A stretch of DNA of 64,000 nucleotides from the NCBI RefSeq assembly GCF_037975245.1, contig NC_092563.1, forward strand, positions 5,829,501-5,893,500, written 5' to 3'. Positions within the stretch are counted from its first letter, which is position 1. Every line of letters starts with the position of its first letter. This document shows, piece by piece, positions 7,879 to 45,800 of this stretch. The notes under the pieces are model-generated. The model had not been told where the DNA came from, ran no database searches, and worked only from the letters and a program-made list of their open reading frames with translations. This DNA comes from Apostichopus japonicus (Eukaryota; Echinodermata; Holothuroidea; Aspidochirotida; Stichopodidae). The position numbers and the translations under genes are program-made.

Positions 7879-8222
7879 CAGTGGCGGAGCTAGGGGTATT
7901 GGTCAGGGGGTCGAGAATGGCCTGTAGGGGCGCTTTCAACACTATCTAAGCGGAGCGCCACCACAGGTTGGCGCGGAGCGTTTAGAAAATTTTTGGGTAA
8001 AGATATTCCCTAGATCGCCGGAAATGACCCTTTCCAGGCCTTGCTAATTTGCAGACAAACGAAGAATAAATAGGTGTCATCGCCAACAAAATGTGACAAA
8101 TGTCAATAGGTAGATGAGAGCACAATAAAAAGTCAATAATCGCGAATAAGTAAAACGTGGTAAAAAGCTGGAAAGGGCCCAGCAGTCCATTTGAGTCCGT
8201 CAGGGGGGTGGGGGGCATCCGC
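7879..8222 (-). mobile_element. hAT-type miniature element, truncated copy
   Basis: One end is intact (CAGTGGCGGAGCTAGGGG). The interior matches, in inverted orientation, the complete element at 44610-45008, including the shared core with GGCGCTCCGCTTAGATAGT-like sequence. The other end stops at GGGGGGCATCCGC, before the terminal repeat, so this copy has lost one terminus. It is non-coding and depends on a transposase from elsewhere. The hAT assignment rests on the intact sister copy, which has an 8-bp target-site duplication. Confidence 0.75.
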
Positions 8223-10505: not shown

Positions 10506-10799
10506 CAGGCGCGTAGCCAAGGGGGGCGAAGGGGGCAGCCGCCCCCCCCCCCCCATTGAGCATATTTTTTTTAAATGTTTTAATGTTTTTATGATATCGC
10601 TAGTATTTTCAAAAGAGAAAATGCTAAGATGCAACTTACAAGTCCTGGGAAGTGCCATTTCCAGCGATTTGGGAGGCATTTACAGCCAAAATTTTCTTGT
10701 ACGCTTCGCGCCAGTCAATGGCGCTACGCTTAGATAGTTTGCGGCAATGCCAAATCTACAGTTTCGCCCTCCCTTGGCAAATTCCTGGCTACGCGCCTG
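10506..10799. mobile_element. hAT-type miniature element with perfect TSD
   Basis: A 294-bp non-coding element with terminal inverted repeats CAGGCGCGTAGCCA and TGGCTACGCGCCTG. It is flanked by the perfect 8-bp direct repeat TATGCAAC (10498-10505 and 10800-10807). The 8-bp duplication and CAG terminus are characteristic of hAT elements. Inside, at about 10648-10738, lies the core (GGAAGTGCCATTTCC ... TACGCTTCGCGCC ... GGCGCTACGCTTAGATAGT) that also occurs in other elements of this window with different ends. A poly-G/poly-C imbalance sits next to the left terminus. Confidence 0.9.
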
Positions 10800-11612: not shown

Positions 11613-12835
11613 CATGGGCGGCGATCCTGGGGGGGATGGGGGGGATATATCCCCCCCATGAAAATGGGTGGAGGGGATGTAATACACCATATCCCCCCCA
11701 CCAAATGCCAGGAATAAGAATATTTTCATGCCTTCATTTATGCATCATCGCGAATGTACGGCTCTTTTTAGCTTCATTTCTCGCCTATACCATAAACGCA
11801 GTGCGATCTTTTCAAATAAACCGTCTTTATAAAGCAAGAATAGTTGACTGTAGGCTTCATTGGCCCTATAACAACAAAATGTATTATTGCGCCCACGGTA
11901 TTGATATAGTACATATATGCACCCTCATAGTATTCATATAGGCCCTATAGTAGGCCTACACACGTACATGTTCCCTCGAACAGCTGAGAATCTCATGTTA
12001 CCAGGGTAATGCTTAATTAGGGGCGTCGGAGCGGTTCGCCGGACCAATATTCACGGCGCAAAAAAAAAAAAGGAGAAAAAAGTAGCACTAAGAAGAAAAA
12101 AAGGCAAAAAATAAAGAACCAAAATGAAAACATACTTCAAAATGTGTTTCAGAAGATTAATCGGGTACAAAAACAGACAAGGGAGAATGCACAGAAGAAA
12201 AGCTCGGGAAGTGCCATTTCCTGCAATCTGGGAGGCATTTTTTCAAAATTTTCTCCATTACGCTACGCGCCAACCAATGGTGGCGCGTAGCGTAGTTTGA
12301 CCTTCCAAACGTCCCCCACCCCCCCGATAATTATGGTAGATGGCCACACTCTGATCTTCCGTACCAATCCCAAATAGCTTCCGACGCCCCTGTTAATACA
12401 CGTACGTTTCACCTGGATGCCCTAGCAATCGGTACCTAGGAATGTAACTATGTGTAATTGTGTATTGCATGTGTATAGGCCTATAATAGCCTGCATGAGG
12501 CCATTTTCTTCATCGAATAATATAAAGAGCTCTCGAACATTCTAACGTAGCGCCTGAAACAAGATTGACAGGGCCAATTTTCCCAAAATAACACCCGAAA
12601 TTTAAAAAAAAGTATTTTGGATCCTGCTTATGAGATATTTCGGACATGAAATCCCTATTTTAAAGTTGGGTATATGCCGCTTGGAAACCTCGGCAAGTGC
12701 CGTTTCCGGCCATCTAGAGGGTTTGTAAATCCCAAAATTTTCTTGTACGCTTCGCGCCAACCCATGGTGGCGCTACGCTTAGATAGTCAACAAGGTCATA
12801 TCCCCCCCACTCGGAAGTACGGATCGCCGCCCATG
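11613..12835. mobile_element. hAT-type element with nested insertion
   Basis: The ends are inverted copies of CATGGGCGGCGATCC and are flanked by the perfect 8-bp direct repeat GACATACA (11605-11612 and 12836-12843). The 1,223-bp interior is non-coding. It contains another TIR element (12018-12391), and near the right end the shared core (about 12690-12790, GGCAAGTGCCGTTTCCGG ... GGCGCTACGCTTAGATAGT). Removing the nested element leaves about 850 bp, some of which may be further insertions. Confidence 0.85.
12018..12391. mobile_element. nested TIR miniature element
   Basis: The ends AGGGGCGTCGGAGC and GCTTCCGACGCCCCT are inverted repeats. The interior has A-rich sequence and the shared core at about 12208-12300 (GGAAGTGCCATTTCC ... 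CGCGCCAACCAATGG). The flanks share only TTAAT, so the target-site duplication and superfamily are unclear. It lies within the element at 11613-12835 and is therefore younger than it. Confidence 0.7.
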
Positions 12836-12840: not shown

Positions 12841-12878
<38 letters not shown>

Positions 12879-12965
12879 AGACTAGTTGAGACTAGTGGAA
12901 CACTATTAGTTGTAACTCGGAGTTTCACGCGTTATAGCGATAGTCAGACGCCAACCAACCAACTC
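12841..12965. repeat. AT microsatellite and relic of a TIR family
   Basis: An uninterrupted AT dinucleotide run (about 12841-12874) is followed by GTTGAGACTAGTGGAACACT ... GTAACTCGGAGTTTCACGCG. This matches the terminal repeat of the element at 37093-37305. Only one arm is present, so this is a fragment or solo end. Confidence 0.6.
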
Positions 12966-13072: not shown

Positions 13073-13231
13073 CAGGGTTTCCCTAACTTTAACTCTCCAT
13101 GAACCCCCTGTGGATGTCAGAGTTGTCCACGAACCCCGTCACTATTATACTAAAATACGCATAACAGTGCTTCGCAAAAGATCAAGTCCGTAGCGTTTTA
13201 TTGTAATGAGAAAAAACAAAAAGAGTTCGTC
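13073..13231. mobile_element. left half of an interrupted hAT-like element
   Basis: Starting at CAGGGTTTCCCTAACT and containing CCATGAACCCC, this segment mirrors the segment ending at 20947, whose reverse complement starts CAGAGGTTCCCTAACT and contains CATGAACCCCC. The CAG terminus and shared subterminal motif fit hAT-type ends. The large palindromic element at 13232-20781 would then have inserted into it. The 8-bp flanks do not match, so this rests on terminal similarity alone. Confidence 0.5.
13226..13231 (+). repeat. 6-bp target-site duplication, left
   Basis: TTCGTC directly abuts the left terminus of the palindromic element. An identical TTCGTC at 20782-20787 directly abuts the right terminus. 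Confidence 0.85.
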
Positions 13232-13250
13232 AGTAGTGTATAGACCCACA

Positions 13251-13555
13251 CCGGGGCATAATCGACAAGGGGGACCGCAACCGGGGCATAATCGGTGACC
13301 GGAACTAGGGCAAAATGGACAGTGGGGACCCAGACCGGGGCAAAATGGACATTGGGGACCGAAACTAGGGCAAAATGGACATTGGGGACCGGAACTAGGG
13401 CAAAATGGACATTGGGGACCCAGACCGGGGCAAAATGGACAGTGGGGACCCCAACCGGGGCATAATCGACAAGGGGGACCCGAACTAGGGCAAAATGGAC
13501 ATTGGGGACCGGAACTAGGGCAAAATGGACAGTGGGGACCCGAACTAGGGCATTT
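13251..13555. repeat. 30-bp minisatellite at left terminus
   Basis: About ten units of 30 bp (one shortened to 24) alternate between two variants: GGCAAAATGGACA..GGGGAC and GGCATAATCGACA..GGGGAC, each ended by CCGGGG or CTAGGG. The period is a multiple of three, so the minus strand is open throughout (13198-13572), encoding ten-residue repeats of the type VPNVHFALVP. That frame runs out of the element into host DNA before stopping, so I regard it as a by-product of the repeat, not a gene. Confidence 0.9.
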
Positions 13556-14405
13556 CTGGAAAATGAGAACAAAAGCGATGTGTTGTACAGTTTTGCTTTT
13601 TATTCGAGTGCATCATTTCTTCACATCAAACAAGAAAATATATTGAACAAAAGGATAAGTCAATAGTGGCTTTAGTGACAATAACAATAGCGACTCGTCC
13701 GTTAGGTAGGATATTGATTTCTGTTTGAGGCAAACAATTACTAACCCCTAAGATCATCGTCCGTTAGCTATTTTCGCGCTCAGTACACAATGAAACTCAA
13801 TGTTCTCCTTTGGGGTCTTAACCTTTCCTTTAGGATATATTTTGTCCGGTACAGTAATGTAGCGGGGGACGATTTTCCAAAAAATTTAGTACACAATTAT
13901 ATACAAACACACTAGAGCTACATATGAGAAAAACACTGTATTGAATATTGAAAGGTATCCAACATCAGCACGACACTTTTCTAAACTCGTTAAAGTCAAA
14001 ATAGATTTACCTAAAAGTTTCACTTGATCTGATACTAAAAAACGTTTGCACCGAACAGTTCATGAAACGTCACTTTGTAAATAATAAAATTAAAACAGAT
14101 AAAAGATGCATCGCTAAACACATTTCATAAAATGTATGTCAATTTAAGAAAACACTTCATTTAAAATAAATAAACACATAAAATCATGCATGATTATGTT
14201 TAGAACAACAACTTGTTAAGCACATGAAATAGTGAACATTGAAATGATCAATCGTTAAAGATATGGATTGATAAAATAATATACATCTTGGTCATTACGG
14301 TGAACGTCATCGGTAAACCTTCCAACGATATCCGCCATACGTTGTCCACGGTTGTTATTTCTTTCTTCAGATCGATCGTATAGTCACCCACGTCTCTCTG
14401 ACAAC

Positions 14406-14894
14406 TTACACATCGTTGTCATCGTCCTCCTCATCATCACTTTCGTATTTGTTCTTCAGTCCATGTTGTAATATCTTAGACATTTCCTTATTGAGTTCGA
14501 GCAAGTGCATCCAAGTCTCCACAGCATCATACGTGCGTTCACCATCCCCGTCATCGTGATCGTCACCACCATTATCATCACTGCTACTACTGCCAGTACC
14601 GTCTGATGTTTCAATCGGCTCATCCGAACTATTTTGTTCATTACTTCCCTCAGTATCCACCAGGTCATCGTCCTCTTCACTGCGGTCATCGGTCGAATCA
14701 CTTTCACGATGTTTGCATTTCACGCCGACACGACGCGTATTCACATAACGATCTCTATTACCATTCACACTGTCATCCTCGCTTTTAGTTACCATCGCCG
14801 CCTTTTGATTACTAGGGTGAATGATGGATTCGTGTCGACGAAGATTGAACTGACGGTTAAATCCTTTATTGCATATTTTACAACGAAATCTCAT
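14406..14894 (-). CDS. C2H2 zinc-finger protein with acidic tail (left copy)
   Basis: This intronless 162-codon frame has one classical zinc finger at its N-terminus. Cys5, Cys8, His21 and His26 fit C-x2-C-x12-H-x4-H, with the conserved Phe12 and Leu18. After a basic linker the rest is Asp/Glu/Ser-rich, with an acidic block at about residues 65-120 and a last acidic run before the stop. One finger plus an acidic tail suggests a nuclear DNA- or protein-binding factor, perhaps transcriptional; the role is inference. It lies wholly inside the inverted arm and reads toward the terminus. The copy at 19119-19607 differs at residue 23 (Ser here, Tyr there) and residue 154 (Asp here, Glu there). The ATG at 14892-14894 sits just before the finger, so no earlier start is needed. 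Both frames being intact argues for recent function or very recent duplication. Confidence 0.8.
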   Translation of the reverse strand: MRFRCKICNKGFNRQFNLRRHESIIHPSNQKAAMVTKSEDDSVNGNRDRYVNTRRVGVKCKHRESDSTDDRSEEDDDLVDTEGSNEQNSSDEPIETSDGTGSSSSDDNGGDDHDDGDGERTYDAVETWMHLLELNKEMSKILQHGLKNKYESDDEEDDDNDV

Positions 14895-14980
14895 CTTGAG
14901 GGTGTGTACTCTTTTGTGTCATTCGACGCAATGAGAGCTATTAAACAAAAATGTGAATGATATACTTTTTGAATATATCA

Positions 14981-15348
14981 ATATGAGCACATGCTCAATT
15001 GCTCATCTAAACGACTCTCTTTTGCTCACGATGTGCTCTTTTGCTCTTTGAGTCACTCCTTTTATGCTCGCGTGCTCATCACATGAACCACATCATGCGT
15101 TTTTGTTTTGTTGCTAATTCTAATATGAGCACATGCTCAATTGCTCATCTAAACGACTCTTTTTTGCTCATGGTGTGCTCTTTTGCTCTTTGAGTCACTC
15201 ATTTTGTACTCGCGTGCTCATCACATGAACCACATCACGCGTTTTTGTTTTGTTGCTAATTCTAATATGAGCACATGCTCAATTGCTCATCTAAACGACT
15301 CTTTTTTGCTCACGGTGTGCTCTTCGAGTCACTCATTTTGTGCTCATA
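14981..15348. repeat. 142-bp tandem repeat rich in GAGCA/TGCTC (left)
   Basis: Units start at 14981, 15123 and 15265, the last one partial. Each carries many TGCTC/GAGCA words, including ATGAGCACATGCTCAATTGC, which is itself a near-palindrome. The dense inverted pentamers look like a binding-site array, lying directly upstream of the zinc-finger gene's start. A link between the two is speculation. Confidence 0.85.
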
Positions 15349-15962
15349 TTTAAAAAATGATATAATCCACGGTAAAGGTTCCAGTGAAAATAATATCGTA
15401 TAAATCCACGGAACTTGCTTCGAAGGTCCGACAAAGGGAAGAGAGAAAGTATCCCGGTAAATGAATCCGATTGGTCTATGTGTATCAAGTTTTATGTCGT
15501 GTACGTGGCACAGGCAAAAGATCCTCAGGTACGGGACCAATCAAGCCTGCTCGTGCAATGTATCAGCCAAAAACGCATCGACTTGGTTACTTTTCAGCCA
15601 TGACGCACTTTTCCCGATCAAAATTTGGCACAAAGTGAGATTGTCCTACCTAACCACTGTTTGTATACCCCCAATACTTTATCAAGTTCTAATGGAGCAC
15701 CTTCCTCCCCGAAGACTATTTGACCTTCTGCCCCCTTTACCCCTCTTCGAAAACGATCGATCGGGACCATTGTCTGCCACCAGCCTAAGATTCCAACACA
15801 CACAATGAGGCATTATCGATACTTGGGTGAGACTTGGCATGTATAATGTGCACATATACGCAGTGTATATAGTGTATTTGTATAACACTGTGTGAGCTAT
15901 AGGCACAACGTATGAGACCATCGTAACCCATGTTTGGATCATCCTTATTTTGGATAACTGGC

Positions 15963-16139
15963 TCGCTTCTCGGCCTTTTGGCTAAGATCATATGTAGTAT
16001 CTGTTCTTTTCGGGAATGGTGATGCACACCTGACGATGATCACACGGTCACAGTCCCGATGCAAGGGGACTGGGGTTAGAAGCGGATCAGTCGTTCAGTA
16101 GTTTGGTTTTCGTGCCCAGGTTCTTTCCTGAGCGACTTT
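15963..16139 (+). ncRNA. U2 snRNA-headed sequence, left copy
   Basis: The first 45 or so bases match the 5' end of U2 snRNA: CGCTTCTCGGCCTTTTGGCT (stem-loop I), then AAGATCA and TGTAGTATCTGTTCTT, including the branch-point-pairing GTAGTA (15994-15999). Beyond this it departs from U2. The remainder can form hairpins, AGTCCC with GGGGACT (16052-16071) and GCCCAGG with CCTGAGC (16114-16133), but shows no clear Sm site of the ATTTTTGG type. The layout (snRNA head, unrelated body, 3' hairpin) resembles SINEs with snRNA heads or a chimeric snRNA pseudogene. Preceded by TATTTTGGATAACTGGCTC. Whether it is transcribed is unknown. Confidence 0.7.
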
Positions 16140-16633
16140 ACCGCCTCTTTACACATGCGCAGTACTCACTCGTACGATGTACTTATGCAACTGATGATGT
16201 CATCCCTAAAATTGATCTAGGACTTGCAACTTTGTTTTATTTTCCCTTAAATATATAAAACTATCTATGCACCGTTTGACGCTATTGTACGTAAAAACAT
16301 TTGTACCGCTGGCTATATGTTACACAGTGTAAAAACATCAACGAATGTGAATAGTACACGTATTGAACAAACGGATAAGTCAATAGTGACTTTAGTGACA
16401 ATAACAATAGCGACTCGTCCGTTAGGTAGGATATCGATGTTTGAGGCAAACAATTACTAGCCCCTAAGATGATCGTCCGTTTGCTATATTCGCGCTGTTT
16501 ATAAGACACGTTACGGTTAAGAATTTCGCGATCGGAAACAAAGTTGCAAGTCCTAGATCAATTTTAGGGATGACATCATCAGTTGCATAAGTACATCGTA
16601 CGAGTGAGTACTGCGCATGTGTAAAGAGGCGGT
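16140..16633. repeat. nested 98-bp inverted repeat
   Basis: 16140-16237 is the exact reverse complement of 16536-16633 (ends ACCGCCTCTTTACACATGCG and its mirror), separated by 298 bp. It begins at the very base where the large left arm ends. It could be a separate miniature element of 494 bp, but the flanks show no obvious target-site duplication. Confidence 0.85.
16363..16497 (+). repeat. third, diverged copy of an arm segment
   Basis: Similar to the arm at about 13644-13782: both have GGATAAGTCAATAGTG, GACTCGTCCGTTAGGTAGGA and a GAGGCAAACAATTACTA segment. This copy has point differences and a small deletion, so it is older than the split of the two large arms, which are nearly identical to each other. 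It points to an earlier rearrangement inside the element. Confidence 0.75.
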
Positions 16634-16724
16634 GCTTACATCATTTGGCGGTATTTTTGAAACTAGCCATTACCTATACTTACACTGTGGCGTACACACT
16701 AAACGCTATTAACATTTGGAACCC

Positions 16725-16731
16725 TATATAA
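16725..16731 (+). promoter_or_regulatory. possible TATA box in the spacer
   Basis: TATATAA lies about 50 bp upstream of a purine-flanked ATG (near 16779) that opens only a 14-codon frame. It might drive a spliced or non-coding transcript into the spacer. The AT-rich context makes chance occurrence plausible. Confidence 0.2.
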
Positions 16732-16750
16732 GACGATGTCTCTGTGGTGA

Positions 16751-17032
16751 TTACGTCATTTGAGCAATAGCCTCGAAGATGGCTAGCACGAGCATATTGT
16801 GTCTTTTATTGTCAACGTTTTGAAACACCAACGCAAATTGTAAATCACCCGGTGGCCTGCATTTGTATTCCACCGTTGGGTATTTGCGGTATGTGGACTC
16901 AAGAGGAGGAGGAGCCTGAAGGAGCAGAGGATAACGGGAAAAGAATACAATGTCTTCATAGAGACACTGGCAGAAATTTTCCCGGAAACTCACCATGGTA
17001 GATGAGGACATTAAGGAGGAAGAAGAAACCAT
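16751..17032 (-). CDS. unrecognised 93-codon open frame in spacer
   Basis: The frame starts at a Met and is Ser-rich for about 15 residues. It then becomes mixed (FRENFCQCLYEDIVFF, YPLLLQAPPPLEST) and ends shortly after VDNKRHNMLVLAIFEAI. Its composition is less AT-driven than most open frames here, and the plus strand over the same bases is also open (about 16840-17010). I do not recognise a domain. It may be the remnant of an element gene or chance. Confidence 0.25.
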   Translation of the reverse strand: MVSSSSLMSSSTMVSFRENFCQCLYEDIVFFSRYPLLLQAPPPLESTYRKYPTVEYKCRPPGDLQFALVFQNVDNKRHNMLVLAIFEAIAQMT

Positions 17033-17843
17033 CGAAGACCTTGTCAGACTTAAGCTGATCAGTACTTTTTTTTTTTTAAACTTTTTAACCGACTCTACAA
17101 AGGGTTATCAAATATTCCAGAAAGAGCAGACTCAACACTCTCCTTAAACATGCATTGTGTCGTCTCATTTATTTCTAACGTATGTATAGGCTTAACTATA
17201 GTGGTAGGCCATTTAGGCATTGGTGTATGTATGTATGTATGTATATGTGATCTTCCCGCAAGCAGGAACTCGCGAAAGAAGCCATGGAGGCTTATAGACT
17301 CGCAAGCTGACCGAAGCCAATCTTTAAAATTTAAGAGGTTGGTTAATTTAATACATTTAGGCTAGTTCAGTTATATATTCTGCTATCATGTAAAGGCTCC
17401 GATACTTTACAACATAGGCCTGTATATATATATATATATATATTTACCCAAATACATAGATCTTTATATAGTCTAAGTTATTTTAAACTTAGGACCGTAT
17501 AAAAATACCATATCCAAATGTACGATGTGTGTATATCATCAAGCACAATCTTTATTGTACACAAAAAGGTGTTTTTGAGGTCCATTTTACCATACGACTC
17601 AAGTAAAATGTAAATTTATTGTAGACCTAACGGTGATCTTAGTTCCATTTTACCATCGTTATTTAGGCATCAAAAAAAGTATGCTCGCCCTATCGTAGTA
17701 CTGAGAAAACTCTAGGAAAGAAAAATCTCGTTAGTGTTGACTTTTCCGGGGAATAGCAAGTTACAGACAAACTAATGTTTCACGGGGAAACGAGTGAAAA
17801 CCAAAACTTTGCGGTTAGAAAAGAAAACTTATCTGGCTAATAA

Positions 17844-17862
17844 GAGCCAGTTATCCAAAATA
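17844..17862 (+). repeat. 19-bp direct repeat, 3' side of U2-like unit
   Basis: GAGCCAGTTATCCAAAATA is identical to 18049-18067. The pair flanks the U2-headed unit and is interpreted as its target-site duplication. The left arm keeps only the 5'-side copy (15946-15964), because the palindrome breaks inside the tail there. Confidence 0.8.
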
Positions 17863-18050
17863 CTTTTTAAGAAAAAGTCGCTCAGGAAAGAACCTGGGCA
17901 CGAAAACCAAACTACTGAACGACTGATCCGCTTCTAACCCCAGTCCCCTTGCATCGGGACTGTGACCGTGTGATCATCGTCAGGTGTGCATCACCATTCC
18001 CGAAAAGAACAGATACTACATATGATCTTAGCCAAAAGGCCGAGAAGCGA
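17863..18050 (-). ncRNA. U2 snRNA-headed retroposon, right copy
   Basis: Identical over the shared part to the left copy, including stem-loop I and GTAGTA (18014-18019). On this side the unit is complete: after GAGCGACTTT it has a short tail, TTCTTAAAAAG in the sense direction. It is then bounded by a 19-bp direct repeat (17844-17862 and 18049-18067). An snRNA head, an A-rich tail and long direct repeats are the marks of target-primed retroposition by a LINE. I infer a U2-headed SINE or chimeric U2 retropseudogene that entered the ancestral arm. Confidence 0.7.
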
Positions 18051-18664
18051 GCCAGTTATCCAAAATAAGGATGATCCAAACATGGGTTACGATGGTCTCA
18101 TACGTTGTGCCTATAGCTCACACAGTGTTATACAAATACACTATATACACTGCGTATATGTGCACATTATACATGCCAAGTCTCACCCAAGTATCGATAA
18201 TGCCTCATTGTGTGTGTTGGAATCTTAGGCTGGTGGCAGACAATGGTCCCGATCGATCGTTTTCGAAGAGGGGTAAAGGGGGCAGAAGGTCAAATAGTCT
18301 TCGGGGAGGAAGGTGCTCCATTAGAACTTGATAAAGTATTGGGGGTATACAAACAGTGGTTAGGTAGGACAATCTCACTTTGTGCCAAATTTTGATCGGG
18401 AAAAGTGCGTCATGGCTGAAAAGTAACCAAGTCGATGCGTTTTTGGCTGATACATTGCACGAGCAGGCTTGATTGGTCCCGTACCTGAGGATCTTTTGCC
18501 TGTGCCACGTACACGACATAAAACTTGATACACATAGACCAATCGGATTCATTTACCGGGATACTTTCTCTCTTCCCTTTGTCGGACCTTCGAAGCAAGT
18601 TCCGTGGATTTATACGATATTATTTTCACTGGAACCTTTACCGTGGATTATATCATTTTTTAAA

Positions 18665-19032
18665 TATGAGCACAAAATGAGTGACTCGAAGAGCACACCG
18701 TGAGCAAAAAAGAGTCGTTTAGATGAGCAATTGAGCATGTGCTCATATTAGAATTAGCAACAAAACAAAAACGCGTGATGTGGTTCATGTGATGAGCACG
18801 CGAGTACAAAATGAGTGACTCAAAGAGCAAAAGAGCACACCATGAGCAAAAAAGAGTCGTTTAGATGAGCAATTGAGCATGTGCTCATATTAGAATTAGC
18901 AACAAAACAAAAACGCATGATGTGGTTCATGTGATGAGCACGCGAGCATAAAAGGAGTGACTCAAAGAGCAAAAGAGCACATCGTGAGCAAAAGAGAGTC
19001 GTTTAGATGAGCAATTGAGCATGTGCTCATAT
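18665..19032. repeat. 142-bp tandem repeat rich in GAGCA/TGCTC (right)
   Basis: Mirror of 14981-15348, again immediately upstream of the zinc-finger gene. Confidence 0.85.
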
Positions 19033-19118
19033 TGATATATTCAAAAAGTATATCATTCACATTTTTGTTTAATAGCTCTCATTGCGTCGAATGACACAAA
19101 AGAGTACACACCCTCAAG

Positions 19119-19607
19119 ATGAGATTTCGTTGTAAAATATGCAATAAAGGATTTAACCGTCAGTTCAATCTTCGTCGACACGAATACATCATTCACCCTA
19201 GTAATCAAAAGGCGGCGATGGTAACTAAAAGCGAGGATGACAGTGTGAATGGTAATAGAGATCGTTATGTGAATACGCGTCGTGTCGGCGTGAAATGCAA
19301 ACATCGTGAAAGTGATTCGACCGATGACCGCAGTGAAGAGGACGATGACCTGGTGGATACTGAGGGAAGTAATGAACAAAATAGTTCGGATGAGCCGATT
19401 GAAACATCAGACGGTACTGGCAGTAGTAGCAGTGATGATAATGGTGGTGACGATCACGATGACGGGGATGGTGAACGCACGTATGATGCTGTGGAGACTT
19501 GGATGCACTTGCTCGAACTCAATAAGGAAATGTCTAAGATATTACAACATGGACTGAAGAACAAATACGAAAGTGATGAGGAGGAGGACGATGACAACGA
19601 TGTGTAA
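19119..19607 (+). CDS. C2H2 zinc-finger protein with acidic tail (right copy)
   Basis: This 162-codon frame has the same layout as the left copy: Cys5, Cys8, His21 and His26 of one finger, then a long Asp/Glu/Ser-rich region. Tyr23 replaces Ser, within the segment between the two zinc-binding histidines, and Glu154 replaces Asp. Both changes are single-base and non-synonymous. Neither alters a zinc ligand, so both copies could fold. It starts 87 bp inside the end of the 142-bp repeat array and reads outward. Likely nuclear; whether it regulates the element or the host is unknown. Confidence 0.8.
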   Translation: MRFRCKICNKGFNRQFNLRRHEYIIHPSNQKAAMVTKSEDDSVNGNRDRYVNTRRVGVKCKHRESDSTDDRSEEDDDLVDTEGSNEQNSSDEPIETSDGTGSSSSDDNGGDDHDDGDGERTYDAVETWMHLLELNKEMSKILQHGLKNKYESDEEEDDDNDV

Positions 19608-20457
19608 GTTGTCAGAGAGACGTGGGTGACTATACGATCGATCTGAAGAAAGAAATAACAACCGTGGACAACGTATGGCGGATATCGTTGGAAGGTTTAC
19701 CGATGACGTTCACCGTAATGACCAAGATGTATATTATTTTATCAATCCATATCTTTAACGATTGATCATTTCAATGTTCACTATTTCATGTGCTTAACAA
19801 GTTGTTGTTCTAAACATAATCATGCATGATTTTATGTGTTTATTTATTTTAAATGAAGTGTTTTCTTAAATTGACATACATTTTATGAAATGTGTTTAGC
19901 GATGCATCTTTTATCTGTTTTAATTTTATTATTTACAAAGTGACGTTTCATGAACTGTTCGGTGCAAACGTTTTTTAGTATCAGATCAAGTGAAACTTTT
20001 AGGTAAATCTATTTTGACTTTAACGAGTTTAGAAAAGTGTCGTGCTGATGTTGGATACCTTTCAATATTCAATACAGTGTTTTTCTCATATGTAGCTCTA
20101 GTGTGTTTGTATATAATTGTGTACTAAATTTTTTGGAAAATCGTCCCCCGCTACATTACTGTACCGGACAAAATATATCCTAAAGGAAAGGTTAAGACCC
20201 CAAAGGAGAACATTGAGTTTCATTGTGTACTGAGCGCGAAAATAGCTAACGGACGATGATCTTAGGGGTTAGTAATTGTTTGCCTCAAACAGAAATCAAT
20301 ATCCTACCTAACGGACGAGTCGCTATTGTTATTGTCACTAAAGCCACTATTGACTTATCCTTTTGTTCAATATATTTTCTTGTTTGATGTGAAGAAATGA
20401 TGCACTCGAATAAAAAGCAAAACTGTACAACACATCGCTTTTGTTCTCATTTTCCAG

Positions 20458-20762
20458 AAATGCCCTAGTTCGGGTCCCCACTGTCCATTTTGCCCTAGTT
20501 CCGGTCCCCAATGTCCATTTTGCCCTAGTTCGGGTCCCCCTTGTCGATTATGCCCCGGTTGGGGTCCCCACTGTCCATTTTGCCCCGGTCTGGGTCCCCA
20601 ATGTCCATTTTGCCCTAGTTCCGGTCCCCAATGTCCATTTTGCCCTAGTTTCGGTCCCCAATGTCCATTTTGCCCCGGTCTGGGTCCCCACTGTCCATTT
20701 TGCCCTAGTTCCGGTCACCGATTATGCCCCGGTTGCGGTCCCCCTTGTCGATTATGCCCCGG
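20458..20762. repeat. 30-bp minisatellite at right terminus
   Basis: Mirror of 13251-13555, with the same unit order. The open plus-strand frame through it (20441-20824) continues past the terminus into flanking DNA, as on the left. Confidence 0.9.
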
Positions 20763-20781
20763 TGTGGGTCTATACACTACT

Positions 20782-20787
20782 TTCGTC
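20782..20787 (+). repeat. 6-bp target-site duplication, right
   Basis: TTCGTC, identical to 13226-13231 and directly abutting the last base of the right arm. Confidence 0.85.
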
Positions 20788-20947
20788 CATAGGTACGATT
20801 TTTGTACATCACGAAATTACATGATATATCAGATTTTAGTTCAACAAAAAGTACTCTAGTTTTGACTTTCAGAAACGTCTCACGAAACCCATGGGATGGA
20901 CTCACGCACCCCCTGGGGGTTCATGCACCCCAGTTAGGGAACCTCTG
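20788..20947. mobile_element. right half of the interrupted hAT-like element
   Basis: Ends CCAGTTAGGGAACCTCTG, the mirror of the CAGGGTTTCCCTAACT start at 13073, with GGGGTTCATG as the shared subterminal motif. Joined to 13073-13231 it would make a non-coding element of about 320 bp. Confidence 0.5.
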
Positions 20948-21059
20948 CCGGTCGTCCGCAGGGAGGGGCAAGGGTAGGGGGCGTAATTGAAAAAAAGTTA
21001 AACATTTGACATTTCAATGATTTCACCCACCCAACAAGATCTCAAAATAACCGATGTGT

Positions 21060-21325
21060 TAATGCAACTTGAAACTCCCGGGAAGTGTCTTTTCCAACGA
21101 TCTAGGACTATTTTTTGGCCAAAAAAAAATCGTGGTACGCTCCGCAACAACTGATGGTGGCGCTCCGCTTAGATAATATCAAGTAGTGTGTTATACCTAC
21201 TTGGCCTACTGATCCCCCCCCCCCCCCTTGTGAAAATTTCCGCGGCCGCCCTTGCTTCAACCTCCTAATATGGGCCCCCTTTGGTCCAGGAGCCGGGGGA
21301 CCCCAGGCTCATCGTTACGCCACTG
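21060..21325. mobile_element. fragments of miniature elements with the shared core
   Basis: 21078-21180 contains the shared core (GGGAAGTGTCTTTTCC ... TGGCGCTCCGCTTAGATA). It is followed by a poly-C tract and GAAAATTTCCGCGGCCGCCC, a typical end of such elements. From about 21268 a different end follows, GGGGACCCCAGGCTCATCGT and then ACGCCACTGG. These look like two abutting truncated elements; no clear duplications were found. Confidence 0.5.
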
Positions 21326-35428: not shown

Positions 35429-36832
35429 TCATCTGGGACTCATTCTGGGGATACCCCTGCCTCTCGGCAAACGACTGCTTGACTTGGCTTGAGGCAACCT
35501 ACTGCCACCGGTCTTGGAAACCACTGGAATACCTCCTCTGGTGTTACCGTTGATGTTTTCTGTCGATCCGACCGGAGACGAGTTACCGTTGTCGTCCACA
35601 CTTTTTCCGTCCGACGATTCCGACAGCCCTCTCTCTCGACCCCTTTCTGTCGTTTTCTTCTGCGTTACGTTAGAATAACTACTTGGTGCTGTCAGCTTTG
35701 ACTGGGGGATGGCTCTCTGCGGCCGTTGGAGTTTGGAACCCTGGCTTACCCCCGCTGGCCTCGTTCCATCGAGCCCACCCTGAGTATCCCCATCGACGGG
35801 CACCGATGCAATCGCTGCTTTCTTGGGCGGAACGGCCGCGTCTTGATTTGCTGGGTATCTCTTCGTGGGTGCCGGCTGATACTGCAGACTTTTTTGGGGA
35901 GGATTATCCTCTCTTCTATGAAGCTGTTCGCTTGGTTTCCCGGGGCTTTTCAAACTACTCTGATACTCTGTCGTAGATACCTTTTCTGTTTTGCTCCACT
36001 GGGGCGAACGAAGGCTACCTTGAGGGGGCTTGGCTACTTTACTGACAGTGACAGAACTCTTCTCAGTCTTCACGGTCTGAGAAGAATACCTCAGACCGGT
36101 CCCTTTCAACTGTTGCAATCTGGATATCTTAGAAGAGCTTCCAGACTTGGATAATTTTGGAATGCCATTTTGGCTTCTGCTAATCCCGACATCACCCCCC
36201 TCCTGTCTCTTCAGACTACCGTCATCAACTTTGCCCGATCTCTCAAATCCTTTTTCCGCTTCTCGATCGTCTCTGACGATTGCGTTTTCGCCGTTATCCG
36301 AATTATCCACTTTGGATGCGTCTATCAAATATTCTGGTTCCCTCTCTTGACTTTCGGACCCGTTCTCTTGACTTTCCTCTGCTGCCCTCACCGGTCTGCT
36401 GCCTCTGATCACCCGGCTCTCTTTCTCCTCCTGTAACGGCACACATTTATTGTCCTCGTCTTCTATAATTTTCGGTGATCCTACCCGGTCAGTTACCTCA
36501 CGGCCCTTTGTTTTATCAGTGTTACCTCCATTTCCAGATGTGTGAGAGGATTGCTTAGACATCTCCTTTAATTTCTCCTTAGATATCTCGGCATTCCTAT
36601 CGATCAAGGGGACGGTTTTCACGAGATCTGGGCTGTGAGCGTCTTTGACTTTGACTTCCACGCTAGGTAATTCCGAATCTTCTGTCCCCTTCATGTCATC
36701 CCGTTTCTCGTCGTTCTCGACTGGCTCTTCTTCCGCAACTTTATTATTATCACCGGCTTCCTCCTCTTCTCCTGCAGGTTCTGACTGGTCCGATTCGGTC
36801 ACTTGGGAGGGCTGCGTCGTTGTACGACTCTC
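35429..36832 (-). CDS. terminal exon of a Ser/Lys/Pro-rich, SRLP-motif protein
   Basis: After the acceptor TCTCCATTTCCGCAG a single exon of 467 codons ends in TGA at 35429-35431. Its first part is acidic (GEEEEAGDNN and similar). The middle and C-terminal parts are Ser/Lys/Pro/Arg-rich and look disordered. Near the C-terminus lie two SRLP motifs (exon residues 444-447 and 453-456) and three GIPK/GIPV/GIPR motifs. SxIP/SxLP in a basic, Ser-rich context is the signal by which microtubule plus-end proteins bind EB1. I infer a microtubule- or cytoskeleton-associated protein. This is the 3' end of a gene whose upstream exons (54988 to 62537) are short and mostly phase 0. Candidates include CCSER-like or other plus-tip proteins, but I do not recognise the orthologue. 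An open frame extends 38 codons upstream past the acceptor; I treat that as intron. Confidence 0.85.
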   Translation of the reverse strand, partial: ESRTTTQPSQVTESDQSEPAGEEEEAGDNNKVAEEEPVENDEKRDDMKGTEDSELPSVEVKVKDAHSPDLVKTVPLIDRNAEISKEKLKEMSKQSSHTSGNGGNTDKTKGREVTDRVGSPKIIEDEDNKCVPLQEEKESRVIRGSRPVRAAEESQENGSESQEREPEYLIDASKVDNSDNGENAIVRDDREAEKGFERSGKVDDGSLKRQEGGDVGISRSQNGIPKLSKSGSSSKISRLQQLKGTGLRYSSQTVKTEKSSVTVSKVAKPPQGSLRSPQWSKTEKVSTTEYQSSLKSPGKPSEQLHRREDNPPQKSLQYQPAPTKRYPANQDAAVPPKKAAIASVPVDGDTQGGLDGTRPAGVSQGSKLQRPQRAIPQSKLTAPSSYSNVTQKKTTERGRERGLSESSDGKSVDDNGNSSPVGSTENINGNTRGGIPVVSKTGGSRLPQAKSSSRLPRGRGIPRMSPR

Positions 36833-39800
36833 CTGCGGAAATGGAGAGACGGAACAATATTTTAATATTTCATCGTGACAGATACAAAAGAACGACTGGG
36901 AAACGAGCAGAAAACAGCAATTCTTCCTCACTTCTGCCCCACCCACCCCTCTCCCCTCCTCTTTATTATATACTCCAAATTATAAATAAATATATATAAA
37001 TATGTACAAATATATATACAAATATTGATACGTTTGTTTGATTGGCGTCTATCTTGGCACAGAATGCTCTATGTCCGGTGGACAGAGCGAAGTATAGGTG
37101 AGAATTAGTTGAGACTAGTGGAACACTAGTGGTTGTTACTCAGAGTGTCACACGTTTGAGAGATAATCAGACAACTCCAAAATTATAAATAAATATATAT
37201 AAAAATATATATATTCGCTCAAACTAATATATGATCGCTCGAAGACGTGAAGCTCTGAGTAACAACTACTAGTGTCCCACCTGTCTCAACTAATTCTCAC
37301 CTATATATATAAATATATATATATGTAAACATATATATATGTAAATATATATATATATGTATATAAATATATATTTATATAATTAAAAATAGATATTATA
37401 CACTTAAAATTGGTATTTGTGGAAAGAAAACTTAAAAATGGAATTCCATTTTTTTTTTTACTGTGAGGGCCATTTCATTCAGGTGCTCAAAACAAAACAG
37501 TTTTGTGCTTTGTTGAAATATGATCAAAATGAAAAGTTTAAAATACAGAGAAGAGGGAAAAACCATGCTTCACAAATGTTGAAGGAGGAGATAATTGCAA
37601 ATTGATCATGTAATACAAAGCAGCATATTAATTTTCTGTTTATACGTATTCATTTTTCTGAAGTGTTTATGTGTTATGTTCTATCATTGCTGGACTGATA
37701 ACCTACTGATGAAGGTACTTTCAAATTCATCAAAAACCAAGGTTTTAAGAGATGATTTTTCCTTTCAAGCACTTCTTGTCTGGGCTAGTCCATGTTGTCA
37801 ACAATATCGTCAACAAAAACTGAAAATTCCATTTTTGTCTCCACAAGATTTAATTGTTAGTTTCTTTGCTTGAAAATGGGAAACTTATTAGATCGGAAAA
37901 TAGTATGCAGAATATTAAAAGTCTGATTGGCAATCATCATTGAGGTCCGAAGACCTTGAAAAACTTTGGTCAAATTCTGCAAAAGGCAATATGCTGCTTT
38001 AAGTATCATTCTGTGTGAGAAAAACACAACTTGTTGGCACAGTGAGAAGAATACAAAATGAAACCTGAATATAATACACCGAGGGATCGGGAATAAACCG
38101 AGGATGGATTTGCTCCGCTCTGGCCGAGCAACAGGATTGCATATCCCACTTGTCACATCTTTGAATCCTCGTTTGGGAAAAAATTTACTTCCGTGCACCC
38201 TCAAAATGAGATATTCTCAGCAACCAAAACACCTAAACAAGTGTTATACTGTCAACTTTGATTAAATTTAATAAGATTATTCGCATCTTCTTTAAAGACA
38301 GTAATGAGTCACATTACTTAAAGGCATAATAGAGTTGTATGATAGAGCAATGTATGATCTCCCGCCATGCAGATACATGAGCGCATATAGATGTATTGTT
38401 AGTCTGGATTAGTGTCGCCACAAGATCTTTCACACACAGAAAATGTCACCCTATTTTTGTTTTTCAAGACAACTTTATGCCAACATTTTTGCCTAGGTTT
38501 ACAGGACAACACTTTCATCTATGTGTTATAAGTAATGTCATTTTAGACCTAGTCTTAAACTGGATTAGATCAAATATCTCTTGGCTCAAGCTGTAAATGT
38601 CACCAATTGAGTTAACACCGATAACCAGCAATCTTTTGGCGTGACTACTTTAAAGAGACAGTCCAGACGAAAATTTAATTTAATAACAGGTTCTTACCAT
38701 CCCGGTGGCAATTTGCATGCTATTCTTACAATCTGTTTTTTTGAAATTTTAATCGTTGAAGTGAAACTGAAGCAAACAGGTGTGATGCCATAGTTGCATG
38801 CTGAGAGCAAACCATTTTTTTAAAAGCGCTGTTTTTTTTGGGTGTTTTTGTGTTTGACCTTGGAACGGAGAGGGTTCCAACGTTGCTTTAGATGATGGGA
38901 AGTTATCATTATCCTAATGACTATAATATATTCATACGTTAATGCATCCCAAGTGGAAGATGAAAATTAGATGTATCTTTGAAGGAAGGACATGAAAACA
39001 TCACATTTAACTGTTTGCTTGAAGATAGTCCACTTATGATACAAAATGTGAAAATTTCAGCTATCAATATCTCAGAAATGATACAATAAGAATTGAATGT
39101 AAATTTCACAAGGAAGCTTAGCATATGTTCCTTTTCCAAAACAACAAAAAATTCCTCTGTACCATGATATTAAGGTTATTATTATACAACTAAATGCAAC
39201 CAGCTAGTTTTACTAATTTAAATATATAATAAGTTTGACTAATTCTAATATTCAGAGAAGAGGCCAGTGTGGTATGTGGGCACAACTTTAAGAGGCCAGT
39301 GTGGTACGTGGGCACAACTTTAAGAGGCCAGTGTGGTACGTGGGCACAACTTTAAGAGGCCAGTGTGGTACGTGGGCACAACTTCAAGAGACCAGTGTGG
39401 TACGTGGGCACAACTTTAAGAGGCCAGTGTGGTATGTGGGCACAACTTTAAGAGGCCAGTGTGGTATGTGGGCACAACTTTAAGAGGCCAGTGTGGTACC
39501 TGGGCACAACTTTAAGAGGCCAGTGTGGTATGTGGGCACAACTTTAAGAGGCCAGTGTGGTACCTGGGCACAACTTTAAGAGGCCAGTGTGGTACCTGGG
39601 CACAACTTTAAGAGGCCAGTGTGGTACCTGGGCACAACTTTAAGAGGCCAGTGTGGTTATGGTACGTGGGCACAACTTTAGGAGGCCAGTGTGGTACCTG
39701 GGCACAGCTCTAAGAGGCCAGTGTGGTTACGGGTACGTGGGCACAACTTCAAGAGGCCAGTGTGGTACGTGGGCACAACTTTAAGAGGCCAGTGTGGTAC

Positions 39801-42800
39801 CTGGGCACAACTTTAAGAGGCCAGTGTGGTTATTGTAGGTGGGCACAACTTCAGCTTGACATGAGAACGTTGCTGACATATCTACCAGATGATTACTGTA
39901 GCTATATACCAACCTATAGGATCCCTCTCATGCAAAATGTAATTACATATTAATACTGGAATAAAATGGAAATTCAAGCTTCTATATATATGTGATGACA
40001 AACTTACCCTATATTCCAGCTTTTTATTTATCTTTTTTTTTCTTCTTTTTTGTATATATTTTTTTCCTTCCTTCCTTTTTTTTTTTTTATATATATATTT
40101 TTTTACTAAAAATATTCTATCAATAACATCCAATGTACATACACAAACAGAATGCAAAACATTCCAACAGCTCAGGAAGCATGAAACCAAAATTCTTAGT
40201 AAGTTTGGTAAACCAGACTTTCCATCTTATATTTAAGTGCATGTTACACCGTATATACATGCACACCTATCACTTCAGATCCAAGGAATTGCTGTAGGAC
40301 AATCACCGCACTGATATATTGTACAATAGGTAAATTATGAACAAACCATGGCACTGAAAAAACCCACTTCAAATCCATGCAATCATTTTAAATATAATCT
40401 ATTACCCAGACCGAGACCGCCTAAAGTAATTTAAAGTAACAACAATTTAGTTTTAGAGTGAAAACATGGCATATTTTGCAATAATAATGTGACATTTAAT
40501 AGAGACATAGTTTTGAGCAATAATGGCCTTAGCTGGCTCATCTGAGATGAAATCTTTTCCTGAGCTGGAAGTAACAAGTGTATACTGTTGTTTGAAATAT
40601 CAACAATCTAATATAATAAGCGACAACAGCTTAATTTCAAGTAAACAGCACAGTTTGAAATGCTATTGAAGTAAGAAAGCAGCGCATCTTGAAATGATAA
40701 TGGTGTCAAGAGAAATAATGTACAATTGTCACTTCAAAATTAAATTGATGTTTTTGCTAAGAATTAGCAGATTTTAAAGAGTGCATTAACAGTATACGAC
40801 ACTTTAGATTTTCGGAGCTTTCTTCTGAATTTTAACCATGAATTTTGGTCCTGTGCAGAATATTTCAAAATGTTCAATGTTTGAGCAGACTACTTAGAGC
40901 GTATACAGTACTTATAGCCATTGAATTTGTGTTGCCATGACGATTCCTTATGATAAGTGGTTGTCTGATGACATAACATATTACACTTGATGAAACCAGT
41001 TGAAGGAAACAAACATGCTAACTAGCTGAAAGTTCTTGAAAAACAATTTCATAAATAATATATCTGAAAAGAATAGGTCAATAAGATTTAATCCCTCATC
41101 CTGACCCCAAAATATCATAAATAAATGTGTTTTTGCAAAGTGTTTCAATTAAATACCTATGAATACACCAAAGATGGAGCGATTCAAACTTTAAGTCATC
41201 GCTAGTTCAAACCTCATCAGACCATGCAAACACTGTCCAAGGTTGCTCAATTCACTCAAAACTACTTCAAAACTACAAAAATAAATATCCCACCATGCAA
41301 TTTCAAACTGTTTTTATTACATACCATACTGTCGGCCGACAAATCTAAGCCTTAATGAAAGAAACAAGGTCACGAGGAGGGGTTAAATATGCAACATACT
41401 AGATAGACAAAAAAGAAATCTGTAATAAAAATAAATAATCATCATAAAAATAATAAATATTAATTTGTATAGCACTTTTATCCAGTTAAAAACTGCTCAG
41501 AAGTGCTGTGGGAAGAAAGTAAAAATTAAAAATCACAACAGTTATCAAAACATGAGTTTTACAAGCTGGGTTAAGTATTCACAAATAAGAGCGACTTGAG
41601 TCTCTTCAGAAAAGTTGACAAATCCTGGATTGTTTTTAAATGTAAGGGGGTGGGAGGGGGGGGGGCTATTCCAGAGCACCTGCTCTTGTAAAGCAGCGGT
41701 CTCCCACAGATGGAAATGCATACGTTAGTTACAAATAGCATGTACTGTGTGATCTAAGTACCCTACTTGGCCTGTGTTCCTGGAGGAGTTTACGAAGTAG
41801 ATTGGAGCTGAACCATTTTATTAAAACTTAAAGGAAAATACTAAGCTTAATAAAATACATTCTGAAGAGACAAATTGGACTGATGATGCACTTTATGGTT
41901 TTAAAATATACAGTATGCCTTTAATTAACTTTGTTTTGCGATTTTCTCTATGTATGTTTATTGCTGTATCATAGACCAATTGCAAAATCCAAATTCAAAC
42001 TTCTAACATAAACATGACAAAATTTCATTTCCATAACTATGTTTCCTTATCACTAAATAGGAAACAGAAAACTTCTATATTTTTTCAATGTGACATACTT
42101 TGTCTGTCAAATTTACAATCGTTTAATCTCAAAATGTTAGACTAAATTTTTGGAAACTCTCAATTTCTCAAAGTGGTATCAGAGAGTGTTTCGAGAAATT
42201 CTCTACAAAAAGCACCAAAAAAAGAGAAATTCTCATCTCAGCTTTCAAAAAATATGAATGGTGGCCCTGAAGTGTGTGTATGGATAGAAGCCATTAGGAA
42301 AGTCCATTTGGAGTTCATGTTTTTGTTACTAGTAAAACCCTAATGGGTTTAACTATATGTCTATTTACTACTAATTGGAGATATTGAAACCTTAAACAAA
42401 ATCAAATCTCCAAATTTCGGGCATTAAAAAAAATGATTGTATCCTTAATTAATTTTATTTTACTGTAAACAAATGGGGTTGTCGGTAGTATAGGAGAACT
42501 GAAGTCAAAGGAGAGTGGGGAAAGACAAAATTAGACAACATGGTTTATAAGAAGAGAAACATGCTACTGACAAATCAACTTGGGCCCACATAGTGAAATG
42601 TTGCAATTACTGATAACTTATTCGATACCAGCTTGATGATGGAGACATATACACTGTATCAAGTCACAGCAGCAAGTAGAGTAAAAATACTTGAACTTTA
42701 TATACATTATGTGAATACAATGTCACAGCAAATATAAACAAATGGGTTTTTTTTGTTCCCCATTTCAATATGCAGATCCAGGTTGCATAGCATGAAGTGA

Positions 42801-45800
42801 CTTCAGGTAGAACACTGTATTGCAGAGCTTATCGGATCCATTGTCACAGCAAATACAAACCTTACATCAAACAACAGATCAATATTCATGCACTTCCTTT
42901 CAATGTCAACCAAGCAATAAGACTTTAAAACAGACCATTATGCAAATAACCCCAAAAGCTGGGGTGGGAGGGGGGAGGGAGGTGTCAGTGTCAGGGTTAC
43001 GGGGAATGGGAAAGTAGAGGAGAGCGGAAGGAGAAAAGAAAATCTGAACTGCTTACTTTATATAACATGTTGTATGTCACTTTACTAACCTAATGCCCTA
43101 TGTTAGAATTCTAACAGTAATTTCATAGGACACCTACTGTTACAAGAACATTTACCAGTTGAAAAGTCTTAAATTTACTGGCAAAAACCTATCAATAAAT
43201 AACTTAGAATTGCAGGGAAAAGACCACTTCCTATAGCTCGATTGAAAATTGCTTAAACTATGCAATTGATTCATATATCCAGTCTCTCTAACACATTCCA
43301 AACACTGGTTTCTAAATATGTATTTCAGGTGATCCATTAAATAGTGCAATACTGCCCTCAGTTAACATCAGCTTAACACTGAACAAAGGGCTTTAATAGT
43401 TGATTTAAATAGTTGTGTTAGTGTTAGTAATACATATTTTTGATTTAACATGAAGCAATGCATCAGCATCATCACATGTAATCTTTATGCAGTACTAAAA
43501 CATCAACCAGACATAGCACTTGCGTTTTAGTAAATATTATACAGTGCAAAAATCCCAATGCCCGTTATAATCAGGGTTCACCCTTCATGTTACCTCATTC
43601 CATGCAGGAACCTCTCTGCTCTATAACTGCTGTGATGCAATCTTGCATATCCCTGCTGCTACCAGATATATGAAAGTTGACCTGTCTGGTCGTGAACCGA
43701 ATGAATCTTAAACCCCAATGAACTAAGAGAATATATATATATTATATTACAAAGGGATATAATCATAAAGCCCCACTAAAAAATATTAATACTTGCACAA
43801 AGCATAAACAGACATGCTGAAGATCAGAACTACATTCTCATTTAGGTCATTATCATCAGTTTTTAAAATGGTGTCATTCTCTAACACAGAGTTTTTTTCT
43901 TCATCTTCCTTGAATTCATGCTTTATTTATATATTATGTTAATGTTATTTATTTAATTAGCAAGCATGAGATGTACTCGACACGGTACTTGTATGTATTA
44001 AAAAGAATTAAAAAAAAGGTATAATGTCACAGGATTGTCAATTTATTAAACAGACACAAACGTGATTGTGACTCTATCTGTTCCTGGTGGCTGTTATATG
44101 GCTTGCAGCATTTAACGGCGCAAATGTTAATGGAATTACATGACTTTATTCCAATGGACAAAAACTAAATGAAAAAACAGAAGTCATCTATAAACATAGC
44201 CAGCCCTTGTGTGAATTAACAGTAAACTTTAGAATACTTGTAAACAAAACAAACAACCCCAAAATTATGTCAGGTTTTATACATGTGTAACACAGTGGAA
44301 ATTGAAATGTTTTCAGCTAACCTGAAGGTACACTCTGGTCAGAAAAAAAAATTCATGCAGACTTCATATGTATAGCAGTCTACCGAGGCGTACTAGTCTA
44401 GCAAGATGCAAGGAACGAAATGGAAATTACAAATGTTGCATTGTCAAAAGGAGTTCACAAGCAGGTTCATATACACAGCAGTCATCTGGTTCAAGTACAC
44501 ATATCTGATGTTAATAATTCAGTTAAAGAGAGTTAACACATGGTACAGTACAAGCCTACATACAGTGTAAGTGATGTTTTTGGATCGTGTGGACATAGTA
44601 TGGTACAAGCAGTGGCGGAGCGTCCATACAGTCAGAGGGGGCGGATGCCCCCCCCCCCCTGACGGACTCAAATGGACTGCTGGCGCCCTTTTCAGCTTTT
44701 TACCACTTTTTACTTATTTGCGATTATTGACTTTTTTATTGTGCTCTCAAATTCCTATTGACATTTTTCACATTTTGTTGGTGTAATTTTCTGACAAAAT
44801 GGCGATGACACCTATTTATTCTTCATTTATCTGTAGATTAGCAAGGCCCGGAAAGGGTCATTTCTGGCAATCTAGGGAGTATCTTTACTCAAAAAATTTC
44901 TGTACGCTAAGCGCCAACCTGTGGTGGCGCTCCACTTAGGTAGTGTCGAAAGCGCCCCTACAGACCATTCTTGCACCCCCCTGACCAATACCCCTAGCTC
45001 CGCCACTGGGTACAAGGGTGATGTTTTCGCATCGTGTGGACATAGTACGGTACAGGGGTGATGTTTTTGGATCCTCTGGATGTGATTCGTTACAGATATT
45101 TTTTGAGTTGTCCGGGTGCCGGGTGGCTCACTACTAAATTTAATGTCTGACAACCAACTCTTTCCTTGTGGCAGACAAGCACCTAATTCATGTACAACAA
45201 AAAGCATCACTGTTAGATCTTTATTTCTACACCACTCTTGTTGAACGGCTAAAATATACCAGTTCCACAATTTATTAAAAGAGAAAAGTCCAAGTTGTCC
45301 GAGATACAGCCTACACATTGTCTGGACAATGACTGTATCTTTGGAACAGTATCTACCTTACATTGTTATCAAAGAGGCAAAAACAAAATACCAATTTGGA
45401 TTACTATTAATCTTGTTTTTCTGGCATACTAAATAGTGACTATGTTTGCTAACATGTCGATTGTACTTGATGCAATCCCAATCAGGTAATTCATATGATA
45501 TTCTGTTCTCCAAATCCATTCCCTTCCCCCCTCCCTATCTCCAATCTTCCTCTTCCAAAACGTACGTACATACACTATACGGCATCCTGTATGGTCCAAG
45601 TTGTGACCGTTCCCATGTCATACAAGTATAACACACCAACCATGTTAGTCAATTATATCCACACCTTGTCAAAGCTCTGGCATGCATCACGCTTGATCCC
45701 TCATGAGACAAAACATTGAATATATACCTTGTGTTCTTGTAAAAAGATATACTCCTTAAACACTGTGTTAAAATGGCTGTGTGTAGAATAAAACAAAGAA

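Follow-up and report, generated by a model that had tools for sequence, protein, structure and literature searches.

A palindromic, apparently Maverick-type element in the sea cucumber Apostichopus japonicus and its possible snap-back origin

How does a mobile element come to consist almost wholly of a palindrome, with its one recognisable gene present in each arm? The question is raised by a stretch of the genome of the sea cucumber Apostichopus japonicus (contig NC_092563.1, positions 5,829,501 to 5,893,500; all 64,000 nucleotides of it are called the window below, and positions are counted from its first base), in which a palindromic element of 7550 bp (7.55 kb) occupies 13232-20781. The answer that we favour, with moderate confidence, is that a non-autonomous element of Maverick/Polinton type has acquired a palindromic genome by snap-back, one end having been copied twice.

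Arms, ends and target-site duplication

The two arms are near-mirror images, identical at 2906 of 2908 positions. The first-pass annotation of this DNA had called them exact; the pairing of coordinates (which sum to 34013) does run through all 2908 bp, but two mismatches, 14433/19580 and 14827/19186, interrupt it. That the arms differ at just two of 2908 positions suggests that their duplication, or a later homogenisation, was recent. Perfect 6-bp copies of TTCGTC touch the element on both sides, as had been claimed, and no paralogous empty site was found in the 64-kb window. The termini read AGTAGT...ACTACT, that is (AGT)2//(ACT)2, so that the 'AG' terminus first noted was right as far as it went but too loose. 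Towards the ends lie arrays of 30-bp tandem repeats, and further in, 5' of the gene, repeats of 142 bp.

13226..13231, no strand: target-site duplication TTCGTC, left copy, abutting the left arm
20782..20787, no strand: target-site duplication TTCGTC, right copy, abutting the right arm
13232..16139, + strand: left arm, 2908 bp, opening with AGTAGT (inverted-repeat comparison; motif from PMC8097293)
17874..20781, - strand: right arm, 2908 bp, closing with ACTACT (2906 matches to the left arm)
13243..13553, + strand: subterminal 30-bp tandem-repeat array, left arm (repeat analysis)
20460..20770, - strand: its mirror in the right arm (repeat analysis)
14980..15324, + strand: 142-bp tandem repeats, 2.4 copies, 5' of the C2H2 open reading frame (ORF) (tandem-repeat search)
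18689..19033, - strand: mirror 142-bp tandem repeats (tandem-repeat search)

Intact vertebrate Mavericks, as described in PMC8097293, have terminal inverted repeats and 6-bp duplications, and their commonest ends are 5'-(AGT)2//(ACT)2-3'; the conserved end-motifs given there include (AGT)2//(ACT)2 and (AG)3//(CT)3. Judged by sequence, and by a motif reference drawn from vertebrate elements, the ends of the present element are of Maverick type, and the mobilisation of Maverick/Polinton type that had been proposed for it fits both the 6-bp duplication and the AGTAGT//ACTACT ends.

Neither feature is readily expected by chance. Given the composition of the window, a 6-bp duplication has a probability of 3.5e-4, AGTAGT as the opening six bases 3.2e-4, and an opening with any of three published Maverick end-motifs 6.1e-4. 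Among 219 AGTAGT...ACTACT pairs lying 0.5-40 kb apart in the window, a single one (1/219), the present element, is flanked by a 6-bp duplication. When a 7550-bp interval was placed at random 200,000 times, 64 placements had identical outside six bases and five had AGTAGT...ACTACT ends; the same five had both, and we read them as draws of the element's own interval. Finally, when the three Maverick end-motifs were sought throughout the window, with either a 6-bp duplication or 12 bp of inverted match required, six rows came out: the element itself, four pairs within its own arms, and 3376/35959, which has no duplication.

The centre of the palindrome and an embedded retroposon

The stretch between the arms, 16140-17873, had been taken for a unique spacer, which it is not: it contains a perfect 98-bp inverted repeat (16140-16237/16536-16633), beginning one base past the left arm, together with a 92% copy of 13641-13780. 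Read inwards, the two sides of the element agree at 2906 of 2908 bp, then differ by 1240 bp found on the right only, agree again for 98 bp, and finally meet in a 298-bp loop. None of the ORFs tested in the 1240-bp segment has a Pfam family.

16140..16237, + strand: inner 98-bp inverted repeat, left copy, abutting the left arm (inverted-repeat comparison)
16536..16633, - strand: inner 98-bp inverted repeat, right copy, identical (inverted-repeat comparison)
16238..16535, no strand: 298-bp loop at the palindrome centre (side-by-side reading of the two halves)
16634..17873, no strand: 1240-bp segment on the right side only, presumably lost from the left arm (side-by-side reading of the two halves)
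13641..13780, + strand: subterminal stretch copied in the loop, about 410-550 bp from the element end (mirror 20233-20372)
16361..16496, + strand: loop copy of that stretch, 92% (repeat comparison with 13641-13780)

Across the right-hand border of this segment lies a 186-bp unit with a head resembling U2 small nuclear RNA (snRNA; Rfam RF00004 at 53.1 bits, gathering threshold 46). On the right side it sits between two 19-bp direct repeats, 18049-18067 and 17844-17862, spaced 205 bp apart. Among the direct repeats listed (at least 17 bp long, 100-400 bp apart), this pair stands apart from the tandem arrays and the AT-rich repeats.

17863..18048, - strand: U2-snRNA-headed retroposon, 186 bp, resembling a short interspersed element (SINE), right side; its last 11 bp lie within the right-only segment
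18049..18067, - strand: proximal copy of the retroposon's 19-bp target duplication (direct-repeat comparison)
17844..17862, - strand: distal copy of the 19-bp target duplication, right side only (direct-repeat comparison)
15965..16139, + strand: left-arm copy of the retroposon, 175 of 186 bp, lacking the distal repeat and cut at the inner end of the arm (RF00004 match and alignment)

Both marks of an snRNA-headed retroposon, an snRNA-derived 5' head and a long target duplication, are present, and from its sequence the unit would be a retroposed insert, a chimeric retrocopy being a further possibility beside a SINE. No further copy of it occurs outside the element in the 64-kb window. A functional, element-encoded snRNA was rejected as the preferred reading in view of the 19-bp direct repeats that flank the unit; the RNA fold of 15960-16139 is ordinary (z -1.58, with 18 of 200 shuffles equally good).

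The retroposon puts the events in order. Since its tail (11 bp) and its distal repeat sit in the 1240-bp segment, the one-sided difference would most simply have arisen after its insertion, by a loss from the left arm. That the right arm instead gained the segment by insertion was rejected, as such an insertion would need to bring with it the retroposon's own tail and target copy. Likewise, the 494-bp inner figure (16140-16633) does not look like a separate miniature inverted-repeat transposable element (MITE): by eye it has no flanking target duplication, and its outer edge is the arm end. Together, the 98-bp inner repeat, the one-sided 1240 bp and the right-only distal duplication point to a single palindrome with a loss in one arm. 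They also favour one end copied back over the relocation of cargo into the terminal repeats, the account originally given. Moreover, from the presence of a retroposed insert the parent would seem to have been chromosomal at some time before its arms were duplicated or homogenised. The loop copy 16361-16496, for its part, may derive from the parent's other end, or may be a shared control region.

Coding content

The one recognisable gene of the element, one copy per arm, is an ORF of 162 amino acids with one C2H2 zinc finger, an acidic middle and a C-terminal YxxVETWM module.

14406..14894, - strand: C2H2 ORF, 162 aa, reading outward (ORF list, Pfam, protein search)
19119..19607, + strand: mirror C2H2 ORF with two residue differences, S23Y and D154E (comparison of the two copies)

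Both mismatches between the arms fall inside this ORF and both change a residue, though two cases support nothing by themselves.

Relatives of the ORF are few. A single-ORF protein search gave three of 63 candidates at E 1e-3 or better, all from Apostichopus japonicus: P0002 (99% identity over 91% of the query, on a contig of 0.6 Mb), P0001 (83% over 99%, on a contig of 0.3 Mb) and P0003 (81% over 78%, on a contig of 46 Mb). None of the three is identical to either copy in the window. In one assembly (BSL78), P0001 and P0002 come from separate contigs, so that the gene occurs there at two or more loci. P0002 may correspond to the locus seen in the window, as represented in another assembly. 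A profile search to E 10, in which at least 7988 candidates were scored, added two short ENA proteins, P0004 and P0005, of which the latter (E 5.3) was rejected as a chance match. A C-terminal module of 39 residues (YxxVETWM...LNKAM...HGLKNK, with an acidic tail) is tandemly duplicated in P0001 and P0003 and occurs once in P0004 (E 8.4e-6), an otherwise different protein of 92 aa. Profile search of the PDB gave 28 sequences, the majority of them C2H2 fingers, with a best E of 0.0023, and a search of NCBIfam gave nothing beyond matches far below its cut-off. The AlphaFold2 model (mean predicted local distance difference test score 52.6, predicted template modelling score 0.16; two short strands and a helix at 124-146) is too poor for use.

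Otherwise the element is nearly empty. Its stop-to-stop frames of at least 120 codons are the C2H2 copies and frames over the terminal arrays, and nothing else; a second ORF of 115 codons (15461-15808) has no Pfam family. Of the 'cargo genes' of the first-pass annotation, the C2H2 ORF alone can be recognised, the U2-like RNA being an inserted retroposon. Of the Maverick core genes (pPolB, integrase, ATPase, protease, capsid proteins) none is intact in the element, which is therefore at most a non-autonomous derivative, as had been supposed. This check covered all frames of 120 codons or more and, against Pfam, 11 of the element's ORFs; Pfam gave zinc-finger families for the C2H2 ORF only, plus two chance matches (E 0.34 and 0.36), both in a frame that runs over a terminal array. 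A tRNA search found none, and scans for bacterial promoters and terminators, which are not relevant here, did not rise above shuffled sequence.

How the palindrome may have arisen

The history that we favour begins with a parental Maverick-like element carrying the C2H2 gene near one end. While this parent was resident in a chromosome, the U2-headed retroposon would have inserted about 2.7 kb from that end. Protein-primed copying from the same end would then have produced a new strand that folded back some 4.2-4.5 kb in and was copied out to the end from which it had started, so that both ends and both gene copies would derive from one end, with the 298-bp loop between them. For vertebrate Mavericks, the repeated end-motif is said to permit jumping-back during protein-primed replication (PMC8097293). 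During the fold-back or afterwards, 1240 bp would have been lost from one arm, and integration by a Maverick integrase acting in trans would finally have created the two TTCGTC copies. The scheme supposes a helper and a protein primer as well as a one-ended parent. Because the target duplication is perfect at both ends, the whole palindrome had most likely formed before insertion at its present site.

Several observations weigh against this history. The same palindrome could be obtained by inverted duplication in the chromosome, and long arms with tandem arrays are common to foldback-type transposons. The join in the left arm has no microhomology, the six bases that follow it recurring 19 bp earlier in the 1240-bp segment, and the copy of a subterminal arm stretch within the loop is unexplained. 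Pfam recognised neither a core Maverick gene nor a remnant of one in the 11 ORFs. No relative came up when viral contigs were scanned with the C2H2 alignment, the C-terminal module and a 20-base end pattern, in a collection from which records near the window's genome may be excluded. The standard for the end-motif comes from vertebrates, while the host is a sea cucumber. Finally, with 7.55 kb and arms of 2908 bp the element is shorter, and its arms longer, than the intact vertebrate Mavericks of PMC8097293, which measure 12.7-24.6 kb and whose inverted repeats span 46-1447 bp.

The best of the other explanations keeps the Maverick-type, non-autonomous element but has its palindrome made by chromosomal events, either by inverted duplication or by recombination of two inverted copies, with gene conversion homogenising the arms. 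The ends and the duplication are silent on how the arms arose, the 2906/2908 match is compatible with conversion, and the retroposon itself indicates that residence in a chromosome preceded the duplication or homogenisation of the arms. Still, the perfect target duplication at both ends implies most simply that the palindrome preceded insertion here, and a rearrangement in place would have had to leave both flanks intact; we hold this origin to be unlikely.

Slightly less likely again is a DNA transposon of foldback type, moving by cut and paste, with a transposase that by coincidence produces 6-bp duplications. In foldback transposons, such as FB and Galileo of Drosophila and TU of sea urchins, very long inverted repeats are normal and carry tandem arrays near their ends, and the present element, with its very long arms, subterminal 30-bp arrays and small middle, has their look. 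The FB, Galileo and TU families, however, make duplications of 7-9 bp. The repeated AGTAGT end, moreover, is a feature described for Mavericks (PMC8097293). Membership in Ginger was rejected, as its TGTNR ends and 4-5 bp duplications (PMC2836005) differ from the AGTAGT ends and 6-bp duplication found here. A false hairpin joined by the assembler is very improbable: long inverted repeats are a classic site of misassembly, but here the left and right flanks differ, the 6-bp duplication stands exactly at the palindrome ends, and the two resolved differences and the 1240-bp indel between the arms, none of which a mirrored artefact predicts, argue against it.

If the snap-back history is true, an animal genome records the re-integrated, defective, self-complementary form of a virus-like Maverick, which would be evidence for extrachromosomal, protein-primed Maverick replication in animals and would reveal a source of satellites that could interfere with helper Mavericks. 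The retroposon inside gives a testable order of events, from chromosomal residence through insertion and palindrome formation to re-integration. One could go further and see in the element a self-perpetuating Maverick satellite, a snap-back form of defective-interfering kind with two outward-reading zinc-finger gene copies and two origins, replicated and integrated by a helper with which it competes, and inherited; this extension we regard as speculative and rather doubtful.

Flanks and the rest of the window

The immediate flanks, 13073-13231 and 20788-20948, look by eye like two halves of an old terminal-inverted-repeat (hAT-like) element, with two weak collinear inverted matches between them (16 bp at 87.5% and 19 bp at 84%, each E 0.56). 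A dispersed host repeat family, built around GGGAAGTGCCATTTCC...CGCTTCGCGCCAACC, occurs at 7906-8178, 10647-10721, 12206-12280, 12693-12767 and 44685-44979, with pieces near the element at 12703-12787 and 21062-21175. A MITE-like short repeat at 37093-37305 (75-bp inverted halves, 84%) has a partial copy (80%) at 12870-12949, just left of the element. Elsewhere in the window are a minisatellite of 17.5 copies of a 32-bp unit (39258-39830) and, on the - strand, a stop-to-stop frame of 516 codons (35429-36979), probably a host gene, with a 43% relative in the protein search and no Pfam family.

Comparison with known systems

The insert is like the SINEs and retrocopies with snRNA-derived heads that Kojima reportedly described in 2015, having a U2 snRNA head on a unit of 186 bp and a 19-bp target duplication. 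The element as a whole resembles foldback transposons in its very long inverted repeats and subterminal tandem arrays, but differs from FB, Galileo and TU in its ends and the length of its duplication; no transposase came to light in it that might be set beside theirs. Non-autonomous Polintons are on record in repeat databases; in the open-licence papers searched we found no mention of non-autonomous, satellite or defective Polintons/Mavericks, which is weak as a sign of their absence. An older suggestion treats the Tlr elements as non-autonomous Polinton derivatives (PMC4028283).

With Mavericks/Polintons the element shares the perfect 6-bp duplication, the (AGT)2//(ACT)2 ends and the terminal inverted repeats; it differs from them in having no core gene intact and in being nearly all palindrome. 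For that palindromic form a parallel is offered by adeno-associated virus (AAV), likewise linear and with inverted ends, for which snap-back genomes are documented both as symmetric forms and as asymmetric forms with a loop, and for whose non-unit-length genomes template switching had earlier been proposed (PMC8235507). AAV replication requires Rep and helper functions; AAV is a parvovirus whose snap-back forms were seen as packaged molecules, whereas the present element is a chromosomal insertion with Maverick-type ends. The analogy is thus one of mechanism, not of membership. In AAV one end is duplicated in inverted orientation to give halves of equal or unequal length around a loop, and the palindrome, the 298-bp loop and the one-sided segment of the element would be the counterparts of these features, copied from a presumed parent end.

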